Of a stretch of 33,193 nucleotides of DNA, positions 14,559 to 21,455 are shown one piece after another. Made by a program: the position numbers and the translations under genes. Source of the DNA: a virus; IMG/VR virus record IMGVR_UViG_3300024521_000002, positions 1-33,193 of that record, one strand, 5' to 3'. The notes under the pieces are model-generated. The model did not search any database. It saw only the letters and a list, made by a program, of their open reading frames with translations, and was not told the DNA's origin. Every line of letters starts with the position of its first letter. Position 1 is the stretch's first letter.

Positions 14559-14584
14559 AAAAAGGGCTTGACGGCCCTTTTTTT
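14559..14584 (+). terminator. Rho-independent terminator at the end of the structural block
   Basis: AAAAAGGGC pairs with GCCCTTTTT around a six-base loop, followed by further T. The A-rich 5' side means it may also act on leftward transcripts converging from the minus-strand operon. Confidence 0.85.
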
Positions 14585-14587
14585 AAA

Positions 14588-14665
14588 TCAACAATATGGC
14601 AATGGTATCTCTGAATTACACTCGCATTCAAAACAGTACTCAACATACCATGCTGGATAATTCAT
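14588..14665 (-). CDS. 25-aa Cys-rich peptide, last gene of the leftward operon
   Basis: ATG at 14665 lies just past the ninG stop (TAAAATG). The peptide MNYPAWYVEYCFECEC has a CxxCxC cluster with a further Cys at its end, so it may bind zinc. It ends next to the convergent terminator. Very short; supported by spacing only. Confidence 0.35.
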   Translation of the reverse strand: MNYPAWYVEYCFECECNSEIPLPYC

Positions 14666-14666
14666 T

Positions 14667-15245
14667 TTATACCCCGTTATTTAGTTTAATTATTTTATCT
14701 TTAAAATACGCCTCAATATCTCGATAATCATCAGCGGTAAGTTTTATCTTATTGCTCCTGTTGTCATCGAGGTATTTAACTCTTTCAGCGCCTATTCGCT
14801 CAATTAAGTTTCTCCTGTAAAAGCCAGAGTCACCACCTTTAAACGTATTGCATGATTCTTTTTGCCCGTGAATATTATCCTCATTAAATCGTATAAATGA
14901 AAAGTTGCCTGACTCCCAAAAATGACCAGCATGGAACGAATCACCCAAAGGCTCCCCGCAACAAATACAGGGCTTACCTTTATCCCTAATGCGAATATAT
15001 AGGTGACAGACTTCTTTAGCCGCACGTTTGCGCGTTGGCAACTTATTGGCGTTGTACTCCTTCTTTTTAACTGCGAACTCTGCATCAATCCGCTTGACCG
15101 TCTTTTTCTTTAACTCGATAGGCTTCTTTGTTGCGTAATTATATCGACAATCATTATCACAAAAGAAACCTATTGGAGCGACAATGCCCTTGTCAGCTTC
15201 CTTGTATTTTTTGCATGACGTACAGCGCCTTTTTTTATTTGCCAT
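14667..15245 (-). CDS. ninG: NinG recombination protein (Rap family)
   Basis: This 192-residue basic protein carries the NinG layout. An N-terminal zinc-binding CTSCKKY and CDNDC (residues 9-35) precedes a Lys/Arg-rich helix. The conserved core follows: PCICCGEPLGDSFHAGH, then RFNEDNIHGQKESCN, with its Cys/His set. Lambda NinG (Rap) is a structure-specific DNA nuclease that aids phage recombination. It overlaps the acyl carrier protein gene by 11 bases and belongs to the leftward early operon, together with the ninB homologue at 16912-17355. Confidence 0.9.
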   Translation of the reverse strand: MANKKRRCTSCKKYKEADKGIVAPIGFFCDNDCRYNYATKKPIELKKKTVKRIDAEFAVKKKEYNANKLPTRKRAAKEVCHLYIRIRDKGKPCICCGEPLGDSFHAGHFWESGNFSFIRFNEDNIHGQKESCNTFKGGDSGFYRRNLIERIGAERVKYLDDNRSNKIKLTADDYRDIEAYFKDKIIKLNNGV

Positions 15246-15543
15246 TTAAACGATCGTCAACTATCAACACAATTTCAGCTAATGTAAACGCCTCGTAGTT
15301 ATCGCCTAAAAATAAATCATCTTCAATTTCAATTTTAAACTGTTCTTCAATACGCATCAGAATCTCAATGGTATCTATCGAGTCGCAACCTAAATCATTT
15401 ACGAACGCCTTATTTAACGTTACTTCCTTGCTTGATAAATCCATGTGATTCTTTACGGTGCTTATTACTCTTTTTTCTGTATCGGTTAATTTATTCACCT
15501 TTAACGCCTCCAGGTTAGTGATAATCGTTTTAAATTCAGGCAT
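15235..15543 (-). CDS. Acyl carrier protein
   Basis: The 102-residue acidic protein has the ACP core: helix I, then VNDLGCDSIDTIEILMRIEE, in which Ser55 of the DSI motif is the expected 4'-phosphopantetheine attachment site, then FKIEIEDD and a final helix (TLAEIVLIVDDRL). Bacterial ACPs are about 78 residues; this one has about 20 extra at the N-terminus. ACP carries acyl chains for fatty-acid and related synthesis. No acyltransferase or ketosynthase gene is nearby, so it would have to work with host enzymes or act as a partner or decoy. It is embedded between a 42-residue ORF and ninG with overlaps on both sides, so it belongs to the phage operon. Confidence 0.9.
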   Translation of the reverse strand: MPEFKTIITNLEALKVNKLTDTEKRVISTVKNHMDLSSKEVTLNKAFVNDLGCDSIDTIEILMRIEEQFKIEIEDDLFLGDNYEAFTLAEIVLIVDDRLNGK

Positions 15544-15664
15544 TCATACTCACCAATAAAATACGAGTCAACACCGCCGCCCGAATATGTTTACCATTAA
15601 TCGCTTGATTCCATATCCAACTTTCACGCGAGTAGCTTCTGATTGTGCATCTTGTTTTATTCAT
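15536..15664 (-). CDS. 42-aa basic hypothetical protein
   Basis: ATG 15664 follows a strong ribosome-binding stretch (GGGGTGATC on the minus strand), and the frame ends at 15536, overlapping the ACP start by eight bases. The product (MNKTRCTIRSYSRESWIWNQ, then an Arg/Leu-rich tail) is basic. Its stop-start overlap suggests coupled translation with the ACP. No family recognised. Confidence 0.5.
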   Translation of the reverse strand: MNKTRCTIRSYSRESWIWNQAINGKHIRAAVLTRILLVSMNA

Positions 15665-15666
15665 GA

Positions 15667-15951
15667 TCACCCCTGCTTTTGTGTAAAATATTTAAACTCT
15701 TTTTCTAAGAATTCATCTATTTTTATACAAGTTAGTGCATGAACCGTATCGGTCTTAGATATTGAGGTTGTTACACCGTCAAGTATTCCGCACATTTTTA
15801 CCGTTTGAGCTTCCAGCTTTGCTACCTTTACCTTTTCAGTGTCAAGTAACCTTTGAAACTCCTCAAGCTGATTTACTACTGATTCTTTCGGTATAGTATC
15901 GACAAATATACCTAACCATAACTGCAAATTTTCATGTAGTGCTGTATTCAT
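15667..15951 (-). CDS. 94-aa helical hypothetical protein
   Basis: ATG 15951 is chosen over GTG 15954 because AAGGGGTGAG lies at the right distance. The product is largely helical, with a coiled-coil-like stretch (LEEFQRLLDTEKVKVAKLEA) in the middle and a charged tail. It ends two bases before the next gene. Function unknown. Confidence 0.55.
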   Translation of the reverse strand: MNTALHENLQLWLGIFVDTIPKESVVNQLEEFQRLLDTEKVKVAKLEAQTVKMCGILDGVTTSISKTDTVHALTCIKIDEFLEKEFKYFTQKQG

Positions 15952-15976
15952 CACTCACCCCTTATTAGTTTATAAA

Positions 15977-16129
15977 TTAATTTTGAGCATTTAACGCATC
16001 TAAATACCCACGCACCCATTCAACATGTTCATTTGAGCCTGCCGAGTATGGGTTATCATTGAGCTCAAAGTCAGCATAGTAGTTTTCGTCACCACGTTGA
16101 TATGGGCTACTTATGCGGTCTATCGTCAT
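15977..16129 (-). CDS. 50-aa protein resembling the Rmf/CrpP-like phage family
   Basis: The minus-strand frame begins at ATG 16129. SSPYQRGDENYY and the block DNPYSAGSNEHVEWVRGYLDA match the pattern of small phage proteins (YxxG then DNPYxxGSxxHxxWxxGY) often annotated as ribosome-modulation-factor-like. Whether it touches ribosomes is unknown. It lies in a run of small genes separated by short repeats containing ATTCAATTAAT. Confidence 0.55.
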   Translation of the reverse strand: MTIDRISSPYQRGDENYYADFELNDNPYSAGSNEHVEWVRGYLDALNAQN

Positions 16130-16152
16130 CTTCAACACTCCCATTCAATTAA

Positions 16153-16308
16153 TTACCGAAGCTCTGCGGTTGCATACCAACCAACACTAAGAACCTCATC
16201 ACAGCTATCGTTTGTGCATTCAATATCAACAGAATCACACGCATAATTTGATAAATCCTCGTTATCCAAGTCTATAACCTTGTCACATTTAGGGCATTCT
16301 ATTTGCAT
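16153..16308 (-). CDS. 51-aa zinc-ribbon protein
   Basis: Start ATG 16308 follows GAGGAAATAAA on the minus strand. The product opens MQIECPKCDK and has a second pair CTNDSC around residues 31-36, a likely four-Cys zinc ribbon, with an additional Cys at residue 24. Function unknown; small zinc ribbons are common phage early proteins. Confidence 0.6.
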   Translation of the reverse strand: MQIECPKCDKVIDLDNEDLSNYACDSVDIECTNDSCDEVLSVGWYATAELR

Positions 16309-16347
16309 TTTATTTCCTCATTCAATTAATACACACGCTATAGCTAT

Positions 16348-16503
16348 TTATTGCGTAACTCTATTTTTATCCAGAAATTCAAGCCATTTATTCAGAACGT
16401 AAAATCTATTTTGATGCCCGCCCATCCAGCCATCAGGCATTTTACCGTCAAACTTTGGCTTGATATCCTTATTGGGGCTAACTTTAATTCTAATCTTTTC
16501 CAT
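16348..16503 (-). CDS. 51-aa hypothetical protein
   Basis: ATG 16503 lies behind a very strong GGGAGGGGGG ribosome-binding run that falls within the preceding gene (14-base overlap). The product has basic strands first (KIRIKVSPNKDIKPKF), a Gly/Trp/Met turn (PDGWMGGH) and a C-terminal helix (FYVLNKWLEFLDK). No family recognised. Confidence 0.5.
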   Translation of the reverse strand: MEKIRIKVSPNKDIKPKFDGKMPDGWMGGHQNRFYVLNKWLEFLDKNRVTQ

Positions 16504-19231: not shown

Positions 19232-19438
19232 TTAATTCTTATAAACTATTGCGCTAATCTGTGTTTTAGTCATGTAAATGTCACAACCCATTTTTTCGTT
19301 ATCTATCGAGCCTGTATAAGTGAAGTACGTCTTGTGATTTAACTCTTTATATTGCTGAACACATTTACAGGCGTATTTCAATTGATTATCGGTCATCGGT
19401 TGCTCTTGCCGCTTTGGTGTTCTAATTGCTATTTTCAT
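19232..19438 (-). CDS. 68-aa hypothetical protein
   Basis: ATG 19438 is preferred to ATG 19444 because GGAG would be too close to the latter. The product has a basic N-terminus (MKIAIRTPKRQEQP), a helix with Cys (QLKYACKCVQQYKEL) and a strand-rich C-terminus. Its leader contains the ACAACGCAAT element shared by four consecutive genes. Unknown family. Confidence 0.5.
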   Translation of the reverse strand: MKIAIRTPKRQEQPMTDNQLKYACKCVQQYKELNHKTYFTYTGSIDNEKMGCDIYMTKTQISAIVYKN

Positions 19439-19450
19439 TTTCATTTCTCC

Positions 19451-19468
19451 ATTGCGTTGTTAATTAAA
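19451..19468 (-). repeat. Shared leader element (copy 4)
   Basis: The plus strand reads ATTGCGTTGTTAATTAAA. On the minus strand it lies just before the GGAG of the gene at 19232-19438. Related copies lie at 19678-19694, 19992-20009 and 20279-20290. Confidence 0.65.
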
Positions 19469-19667
19469 TAAGATAAAGGTCTTCAATCACCTTGCCCTCA
19501 TAACCTACCGTAATCGGTTCGTCGTGCATGTCTATAACCTGAGTAAGCCCCATCACATCAATAGTTAAAAGCCCACAACTTAGCTCAACATGTACAACTG
19601 GAAATCCCTTACAGTAAATTACATCATCAATTTTTAACCATTTTTCATTTCCTGTAAGTACATCCAT
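19464..19667 (-). CDS. 67-aa hypothetical protein
   Basis: ATG 19667 has GGAG seven bases upstream. The product is strand-rich and acidic (LKIDDVIYCKGFPVVHVELS, then LTQVIDMHDEPITVGYEG), suggesting a small beta-barrel. The stop TAA is formed within the shared leader element of the next gene. Unknown function. Confidence 0.5.
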   Translation of the reverse strand: MDVLTGNEKWLKIDDVIYCKGFPVVHVELSCGLLTIDVMGLTQVIDMHDEPITVGYEGKVIEDLYLI

Positions 19668-19677
19668 TTCATTTCTC

Positions 19678-19694
19678 CATTGCGTTGTTAATTG
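19678..19694 (-). repeat. Shared leader element (copy 3)
   Basis: CCATTGCGTTGTTAATT on the plus strand. It precedes the gene at 19464-19667 and is followed by the same GGAGAAATGAAA context as copy 4. Confidence 0.6.
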
Positions 19695-19699
19695 ATGCT

Positions 19700-19972
19700 C
19701 TAAACTATTGTGAATAAATGCCTTGGTATTACGTGATCATCATCTGTCATTTCAAAATAATCTTTCTCAGGGTTTTCGTGCGGGTATTCGTAAACTTGTA
19801 CAAAATCATTTCTAGCCATGCGATCTAAAAAATTATCCATAGCCTCTGTGTGTTTAAATTCTGGGTCGTAACCCTTTAGCCATTCAAAATATTTCACTCT
19901 AAAATGATCTACAGGCTTTACTGTAAAATAATTATGATCTATTACCCATTGGCTTTGCGGTGCGTCACTCAT
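19700..19972 (-). CDS. 90-aa acidic hypothetical protein
   Basis: Starts at ATG 19972 behind GAGAGAGTTAAA. The product is acidic and aromatic (VIDHNYFTVKPVDHFRVKYF, then QVYEYPHENPEKDYFEMTDD). No family recognised. Small acidic early proteins in this position often inhibit host enzymes, but nothing specific can be said. Confidence 0.55.
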   Translation of the reverse strand: MSDAPQSQWVIDHNYFTVKPVDHFRVKYFEWLKGYDPEFKHTEAMDNFLDRMARNDFVQVYEYPHENPEKDYFEMTDDDHVIPRHLFTIV

Positions 19973-19985
19973 TTTAACTCTCTCT

Positions 19986-20261
19986 TTAGTTGATTGCGTT
20001 GTTAATTAAATACTTTGCGAGGGCTTTGCACTGTACTGCTCCGTTGTGGCGAATCCACCATTGAGGGTAAATACCTAAAAATATAGCGTCATCAAAGTTA
20101 CTATCTCCGTGTTCCTTTTTTTCTGTGTACCGAATAAAGTGCCCGTTTACAAAAACTTCATTTACATGTGCCTTTTCTGGGTTCCCGTCGAGATCAGGTA
20201 TAGGGAACTCTTTAATTAATTCATCCTGTTGCTTACTGTAAAAGTATTTGTATGGTTTCAT
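19986..20261 (-). CDS. 91-aa hypothetical protein, first gene of the leftward operon
   Basis: ATG 20261 is the first start downstream of the minus-strand promoter at 20303-20331. The product (YKYFYSKQQDELIKEFPIPD, then FLGIYPQWWIRHNGAVQC and ALAKYLINNA) is a mixed alpha/beta soluble protein rich in aromatics. Being promoter-proximal it should be made earliest and most. Unknown family. Confidence 0.55.
   Translation of the reverse strand: MKPYKYFYSKQQDELIKEFPIPDLDGNPEKAHVNEVFVNGHFIRYTEKKEHGDSNFDDAIFLGIYPQWWIRHNGAVQCKALAKYLINNAIN
19992..20009 (-). repeat. Shared leader element (copy 2)
   Basis: GATTGCGTTGTTAATTAA on the plus strand. It precedes the gene at 19700-19972 with the same CAACTAAAGAGAG context as copy 1 at 20279-20290. 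Confidence 0.6.
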
Positions 20262-20278
20262 TTCAATTCTCTTTAGTT

Positions 20279-20290
20279 GATTGCGTTGTT
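20279..20290 (-). repeat. Shared leader element (copy 1, partial)
   Basis: GATTGCGTTGTT, the core of the element, lies between the leftward promoter and the first gene (19986-20261). Confidence 0.5.
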
Positions 20291-20302
20291 GATGAGGTAA
20301 TA

Positions 20303-20629: not shown

Positions 20630-20690
20630 CAGGCATAAAAAAGGCGCTCCGTAAAAGCACCTAATTAATATCAACATAGGAATTATAACA

Positions 20691-21455
20691 GTGCATTATT
20701 TTCAATTCAACATAGGAGACTATGCGAGTCATACAAGCAGATTAACCCCGCTTGAAGATTTAGCGTATAGACGAATGCTTGACTTGTATTATTTAAATGA
20801 ACAGCCGTTGAACGGATGCTTAACAGACGTTGCACGTGAGTTGGGATTATCTGAACACGTGAATGAAGTTGAGTATGTTTTAAGTAAATTCTTTACTGAA
20901 ACTGAAACAGGTTTTTCACAAAAAAGAATTGATTTAGAAATCAAAAAATACAAATCTAACGCAAAAAATAAAAGTAAGGCTGGCAAGGCTTCCGCGAAAG
21001 CTAGAGCTACAAAGGCTTCAAAGGAAGTAACAGGTGTTGAACAGGTGTTGAACGCATCGGCAACAAACGTTGAACTAAACATAAACCATAAACCAATAAC
21101 CAATAACCAAGAACCATTAAACAGTTTAGTAACTAAAGATATAGTCGCTAAGGCTCCAAAGTTTAATTTCAAAACTGAGTTATTAGCGTTAGGTGTTGAT
21201 CCTGAAATTCTTGAAGATTGGCTAACTGTTCGTAAAAAGAAAAAGGCTAGCAATACAAAAACAGCCTTAAGAGGTTTGATCGCTGAAATAACAAAATCAG
21301 GATTGATGATCAACGATGCTATCGAATATGCCGCAAGTAAAAGTTGGTCAGGATTTAAAGCGGATTGGTATTTCAATGAAAACCCAATAAACACAGTTAA
21401 GCAGTATTCAGATACTACAGCTAAAAACCTTAAAAACTTAGAAGGGGAATGGTAA
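20691..21455 (+). CDS. DUF1376-type replication initiation protein
   Basis: The 254-residue protein starts with GTG at 20691 behind ATAGGAATT. Residues 1-100 are a clear DUF1376 domain (FNIGDYASHTSRLTPLEDLA, YRRMLDLYYLNEQPL), followed by a Lys/Ala-rich basic linker (KNKSKAGKASAKARATKAS), a variable Asn-rich stretch and a C-terminal domain (LEDWLTVRKKKKASNTKTAL, ending AKNLKNLEGEW). DUF1376 proteins precede helicase loaders or primases in many phages and are thought to act in replication initiation. The next gene overlaps its stop. Confidence 0.85.
   Translation: MHYFQFNIGDYASHTSRLTPLEDLAYRRMLDLYYLNEQPLNGCLTDVARELGLSEHVNEVEYVLSKFFTETETGFSQKRIDLEIKKYKSNAKNKSKAGKASAKARATKASKEVTGVEQVLNASATNVELNINHKPITNNQEPLNSLVTKDIVAKAPKFNFKTELLALGVDPEILEDWLTVRKKKKASNTKTALRGLIAEITKSGLMINDAIEYAASKSWSGFKADWYFNENPINTVKQYSDTTAKNLKNLEGEW

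Follow-up and report, generated by a model that had tools for sequence, protein, structure and literature searches.

Acyl carrier proteins (ACPs) encoded by phages have been described from several lineages. Alteromonas phage R22Y carries an ACP whose function is presented as hypothetical (PMC11705849), the paper on Erythrobacter phage R6L says of its ACP that the "function remains unclear", and ACP genes are reported from roseobacter prophages, three of which also have fabG and fabF (PMC8224337). The ACP examined here, encoded in a linear virus record of 33,193 bases that was analyzed at its full length and is called the window below, is phage-borne like these and comes from another lineage, the likeness being one of description. 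At the profile level it matches the phage ACPs of PHROG families 5934 and 4154, which are placed in the category "moron, auxiliary metabolic gene and host takeover"; with phage ACPs already forming PHROG families and appearing in papers, it is ordinary in kind. The literature searched, which left most subscription journals outside, held no experimental study of a phage ACP. Three further papers were considered and set aside: the gene in PMC5977210, a candidate link to DNA hypermodification, is named in that source as an "acyl carrier protein reductase", a different gene; PMC10433977 deals with mutations of host acpP in phage escape and not with a phage gene; and PMC11924767 does no more than name an ACP in a list of predicted genes. 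Among bacterial proteins, AcpB of E. faecalis is described as a dispensable protein that shares 30% identity with AcpA, is converted to the holo form by AcpS and is required for the regulation of fatty-acid synthesis (PMC6509188). AcpB is thus an auxiliary, regulatory ACP of a divergence (~30%) like that of the window ACP; it differs in being chromosomal and Gram-positive where the window ACP is phage-borne, and this comparison too is by description.

The ACP-like proteins of the Ackermannviridae (Det7, Ag3) belong to the same Pfam family as the window ACP and match it in tblastn at E of about 1e-3. All 11 of those read have Glu or Asp at the position of the serine: Ag3 and Det7 read DLGGDELD, and nine further Ackermannviridae-type loci in IMG/VR read GGDELD or GGDDLD (the serine-less loci are L126-L134, L004:5989-6315 and L043:3830-4153). 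Immediately upstream, Ag3 and the nine IMG/VR loci carry a large ORF whose start is VWA-like, the VWA match of the Ag3 upstream protein being sub-threshold (E 1.7e-4). The Ag3 ACP-like protein still scores over the PF00550 cut-off (25.0 vs 20.8 bits). Because the serine is replaced by Glu or Asp, the name "acyl carrier protein" is doubtful for this group, and its members are, to go by these residues, probable non-carriers. One protein of this kind, Sajous1 gp186, appears as a single retrieval in a proteomics table (PMC10892097). Unlike the Ackermannviridae proteins, the window ACP keeps its serine and is preceded by ORFs of only 44 and 95 aa. Elsewhere among phages, two carrier-domain genes, encoding 236 aa and 90 aa, lie side by side in Pseudomonas phage HRDY3 (L007:5313-6282), and HRDY3 and pf16 have similar-looking proteins of 693 aa and 665 aa near their ACPs, that of pf16 having no Pfam family match.

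The original prediction that the ORF at 15235-15543 on the minus strand (102 aa from ATG15543, with a TAA stop) encodes an ACP was borne out by Pfam, PHROG and PDB sequence matches. Against PF00550 (PP-binding) the product scores 35.4 bits (E 1.3e-8; gathering score 20.8), and the two Pfam models that match it at E up to 0.1 are both carrier families. Residues 17-100 match phrog_5934, "acyl carrier protein" (E 3.6e-12), and the protein also matches PHROG 4154 (E 1.7e-9), PHROGs having no curated cut-off; the best PDB sequence match is 2n57, an ACP (E 1.7e-11). The DSI site is intact, as had been proposed, with Ser55, within LGCDSIDTIEILM, falling at the start of helix II in the alignments; its codon lies at 15379-15381 (-), and reading frame and alignments mark it as the predicted 4'-phosphopantetheine site. 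The serine column of alignment A3 is invariant (44/44) by construction, since the search pattern required DS[LIF]D, and carries no evidential weight. The predicted ACP helices likewise reappear in an AlphaFold2 model (pLDDT 84.8) with four helices, at residues 21-34, 55-69 and 88-100 and, with low confidence, at 5-14 near the N-terminus; block means range from 84 to 96 over residues 21-100 and drop to 53 and 62 in the first 20 residues. Foldseek returned 43 PDB matches to the model at E <= 0.001, the best 20 of which are all ACPs, alone or in complexes (top match E 4.6e-5, TM by target 0.84), and five matches at E <= 0.001 in a viral library, including carrier proteins of pf16, Motura and Harreka_1. 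By family, intact serine and predicted fold we regard the ORF as confirmed, at the level of sequence and model, to encode an ACP, and phosphopantetheinylation of Ser55 is predicted.

Housekeeping AcpP (TIGR00517) has the fold, the DSx serine and the helix-II pattern in common with the window ACP, which differs from it in scoring below the cut-off, in being less acidic, in having no fab neighbors and in a 4-residue insertion before helix IV. Against TIGR00517 the window ACP reaches 57.5 bits (58.0 from the alternative GTG start described below) where the cut-off is 70.45 and the control, E. coli AcpP, reaches 129, and it falls under every AcpP-type NCBIfam cut-off listed. By score and by the absence of fab genes it thus lies outside the AcpP equivalog, its neighbors being ninG and ORFs without a family match. 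Compared with E. coli AcpP, from which the AcpP or auxiliary ACPs of the true host may differ, matching residues include Asp54, Ser55, Asp57, Glu60, Met63, Glu66, Glu67 and Ile73, located where helix II begins, along its face and in the loop behind it. Helix II of the window ACP keeps D54, S55, D57, T58, E60, M63, E66, E67 and F69, with R64 and Q68 replacing A45 and E49 of AcpP, two substitutions that could weaken binding to host enzymes. Its net charge is -9 against -15 for AcpP (helix II, -3 against -5); across 80 viral ACPs the helix-II charge averages -4.6, and 7 of the 80 stand at -3 or above. By these measures the window ACP is a diverged auxiliary ACP.

The nearest homologue of the window ACP is ~40% identical to it, and relatives generally share about 30-40% of their residues. 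In a tree of 84 ACPs (out of 91 sequences, duplicates and any with a stop having been dropped), built on the 83 columns kept and with 48 of 81 inner branches open, the window ACP sits on a long branch (1.2) and joins L048 (99/94), not E. coli AcpP. L048 is an ACP on a 25-kb uncultivated phage contig that has the CDSID motif in common with the window ACP and, like the window, comes from a record without a ketoacyl synthase. Its gene lies behind a Toprim/AAA protein, the Toprim match being just under its cut-off, and a GapR-like protein; the phage is otherwise unrelated to the window phage, and the pairing rests on the 83 columns. In single-protein scans, 23 stretches of viral contigs fitted the pattern and none was confirmed as a close relative, and one of 96 stretches from genome contigs was confirmed, as a bacterial ACP. 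Plasmid matches (51 records) were set aside as relatives; where annotated, they are bacterial ACP genes among the 15 matches listed.

Two start codons are possible for the ACP gene. GTG15498, which gives a gene at 15235-15498 (-) and a product of 87 aa, has GGAGG 8 bases upstream and a Shine-Dalgarno duplex energy of -9.3 kcal/mol, compared with -7.4 for ATG15543, the fifth percentile of background positions being -7.7. The residues before the helix-I column number 10 from GTG15498 and 25 from ATG15543; in 44 relatives (from 80 viral loci, hand-picked for length and with near-duplicates thinned) the median is 9, and four of the 44 have 27 or more. On these signals, and with residues 1-20 modeled at low pLDDT, we prefer GTG15498. 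The original prediction had the gene locked into a leftward operon by overlaps on both sides, and half of this stands: the gene lies in a leftward run with ninG (14667-15245 (-), a NinG/Rap-like endonuclease, PF05766, E 6.5e-31) and overlaps it by 11 bases. Upstream, the ATG-initiated frame overlaps the 44-aa ORF (15536-15670 (-); 42 aa with ATG15664; without a match in Pfam or PHROG) by 8 bases, an overlap that the uncertainty of the start codon makes doubtful; if the GTG is used, the ACP gene begins 37 bases after the 44-aa ORF and the ninG overlap alone remains. The 44-aa ORF itself has a Shine-Dalgarno energy of -8.6 at ATG15664 and -0.1 at GTG15670. It is preceded by a 95-aa ORF (15667-15954 (-)) with nothing over cut-off in Pfam or PHROG.

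The record, which may be a fragment because it is linear, encodes among its virion genes a P22-type coat protein (PF11651, E 7.3e-46) and a P22-type scaffold, together with a gp10-like stabilization protein (PF11134) and a tailspike with a P22 head-binding domain (PF09008). The nearest named-phage relatives of the gp10-like protein are ~44% identical at best and occur in Vibrio phages, and a search of 50,697 phage records found nothing that matches positions 1-25000 of the window at the nucleotide level. The leftward run, which extends from 20261 to 14667 on the minus strand, comprises 19 ORFs spaced by -14 to 74 bases (the list was made by hand and counts in small ORFs without homologues); it includes a NinB/Orf protein (PHROG 72, E 7.3e-25) and terminates with NinG, the ACP ORF standing immediately before ninG. 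The lambda nin genes serve as the model here, and by analogy with them the run would be transcribed early. A weak terminator-like hairpin at 14559-14582 (-), 3' of ninG, marks the probable end of the operon; six terminator-like sites were found in the window against 3.2 expected from shuffles. At the head of the run, at 20642-20710 (-), an extended -10 promoter-like site (10/12) is followed directly by a terminator-like hairpin, which could reflect attenuation or antitermination control; promoter-like sites across the window are no commoner than in shuffles. Between small ORFs of the same operon, a 41-base repeat with the core ATTGCGTTGTTRAT occurs in four copies (window 19431-20300), and the sister phage described below has similar repeats. 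A small ORF three genes upstream of the ACP, at 15977-16144 (-), matches ribosome modulation factor below threshold (PF04957, E 0.0034, 17.9 bits for a cut-off of 27.9) and has one matching phage record, Pseudomonas phage Ep020 (45%).

A sister phage, represented by contig pieces L037 and L038, has a gp10 that is 94% identical to that of the window and no ACP by tblastn and Pfam profile. The ACP is likewise missing by tblastn from all 28 related records, none of which has PF00550 over the cut-off; at E <= 0.1 a single one of the 28 gives a hit, of 12.5 bits inside a 453-aa frame and below the cut-off. No other ACP was found beside ninG in the ninG records searched (0/28 related records over cut-off), and a relative with a 70% identical NinG (L009, L040) has a DUF1367 gene in the ACP's place before ninG. 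The operon of the sister phage ends in a RusA-family resolvase (PF05866, 26.1 vs 22.8 bits) in the place of ninG. Two short blocks bound the region of difference. One, at 14661-14695 at the 3' end of ninG, consists of 35 bases that are 97% identical to the 3' end of the sister phage's RusA gene, and spans the stop codons of the two resolvase genes; the other, at 15946-15979, covers the intergenic Shine-Dalgarno sequence and start of the 95-aa gene, and its 34 bases recur, with 97% identity, at two places in the sister phage. Between them lie the 95-aa ORF, the 44-aa ORF, the ACP and NinG. Because the sister phage is without the ACP, has RusA for ninG and shares near-identical flanking blocks, we place the ACP in an exchangeable cassette, of which the 95-aa ORF is the first gene.

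Short near-identical blocks, these two among them (window 14661-14695, 15946-15979, 16127-16153 and 16319-16361; L037 12976-13010, 14091-14124, 14452-14482 and 14696-14753), border genes of the two leftward operons that are otherwise unrelated between the phages, and the intergenic unit with its Shine-Dalgarno sequence and start codon is present in two copies in the sister phage. These shared blocks look like module boundaries for gene exchange; in a search of viral contigs with the boundary sequences, the sister phage was the sole match. Mosaic exchange has long been known in lambdoid phages, and by analogy the cassette arrangement is mosaic exchange of the lambdoid kind, by a route that we infer.

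The expectation that no fatty-acid enzyme would be encoded nearby is borne out over the recorded 33 kb, linear and possibly a fragment: the record has neither a ketoacyl synthase (PF00109) nor a holo-ACP synthase (ACPS), and the window ORFs scanned with Pfam, many small ORFs lying outside that scan, include no fatty-acid synthesis (FAS) or acyltransferase family. The absence of such families argues mildly against acylation of a phage protein and against a self-contained pathway, and an ACP without a pathway must rely on host AcpS and host partners, or act in the apo form. Among 80 viral ACP records a ketoacyl synthase occurs in four, three of them contigs 9.6-20 kb long that bear a full-length FabF-like frame and the fourth a contig of 4.5 kb, and these four may be bacterial DNA. 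Since only four of the 80 have the enzyme, most phage ACPs are unaccompanied by FAS genes of the phage, and a solitary ACP is the rule among these records, several of which are short fragments. A defense-related role was also considered and set aside, PADLOC matching neither the ACP nor any of the six other leftward ORFs scanned with it.

The reading we favor, at a probability of roughly one half, is that the gene encodes an auxiliary ACP, an exchangeable accessory gene product of a P22-like phage, that is charged by host AcpS and takes part, or competes, in the acyl-ACP network of the host. Host AcpS would convert the phage ACP to holo-ACP, which would take acyl groups or partners from the host network, mainly by contacts through the conserved helix II, and host lipid synthesis or an ACP-binding regulator would thereby be shifted in the phage's favor during infection. 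A modulator competing with host ACP is more likely than a protein able to stand in for AcpP when fatty acids are made in bulk: the regulatory role of AcpB, the reported inhibition of glycerol-3-phosphate acyltransferase by surplus ACP, chiefly apo-ACP (PMC3896788), and the SpoT and MukB observations discussed below point to a competitor or modulator rather than a supplier, by steps that we infer. A viral DNA mimic that inhibits MukBEF is also reported (PMC7617805), so that at least one virus attacks this complex. The three functions originally suggested, namely redirection of host lipid synthesis, acylation of a phage protein and competition for regulators, are candidates at the level of sequence.

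Less probable is a protein that acts as a decoy or ligand for host ACP-binding regulators (SpoT, MukB or similar) through helix II, with the acyl group beside the point. Helix II of ACP is described as the site recognized by SpoT (PMC3340395), and the SpoT-mapped residues L42, V43 and M44 correspond to I61, L62 and M63 in the window ACP; the MukB ATPase is reported to be stimulated comparably by apo- and holo-AcpP (PMC8602292). The Ackermannviridae proteins keep the helix-II pattern with Glu or Asp for the serine in all 11 read, so that some phage ACP-like proteins probably work without a prosthetic group. However, the window ACP has kept a serine that a pure decoy would not need, and apo-ACP is reported not to be bound by SpoT (PMC3896788). 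Moreover, the single substitutions M44I and L42M are described as enough to disturb the binding of E. coli ACP to SpoT (PMC3340395), and the window ACP differs at two of the three SpoT-mapped positions.

A broader form of this idea, which we hold only tentatively, would make phage ACPs a host-takeover class that mimics the helix-II docking face and captures regulators (SpoT, MukBEF and others), with the Ackermannviridae having dropped the serine and the window ACP having kept it. We consider it equally doubtful that the window ACP is a metabolic helper boosting host fatty-acid or membrane synthesis, as AMG papers propose for roseobacter prophages (PMC8224337) and Alteromonas phage R22Y (PMC11705849). 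The retained serine and most of the helix-II residues would suit such a helper, but the protein scores under the AcpP equivalog cut-offs, the record is without a ketoacyl synthase, host AcpP is described as already very abundant (PMC8602292), and additional ACP tends to depress the synthesis of lipids (PMC3896788).

We consider it unlikely that the window ACP serves exclusively as the acyl or aminoacyl source for an unrecognized enzyme that modifies a phage protein, lipid or DNA base. It is common for a carrier protein to work with a single enzyme, and other phage ACPs adjoin or lie near large unassigned proteins, VWA-like in the Ackermannviridae and of 665-693 aa in pf16 and HRDY3; the direct neighbors of the window ACP, however, are the 44-aa ORF, the 95-aa ORF and NinG, and the window ORFs scanned yielded no acyltransferase, adenylation or ligase family. 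That the ACP is a functionless passenger, as its place inside a swap cassette and the lack of PF00550 over cut-off in the sister phage and 27 other related records might suggest, is very improbable given an intact reading frame that still preserves the serine and the residues of helix II where identity to relatives is down to about 30-40%.

In many genome annotations phage ACPs figure as metabolic genes, and in the Ackermannviridae the "ACP" annotation hides probable non-carriers. The window ACP, solitary and small, with its serine kept and its gene in an exchangeable cassette, is simple to test, and together with the serine-less Ackermannviridae proteins it provides a ready contrast for separating acyl carriage from docking.
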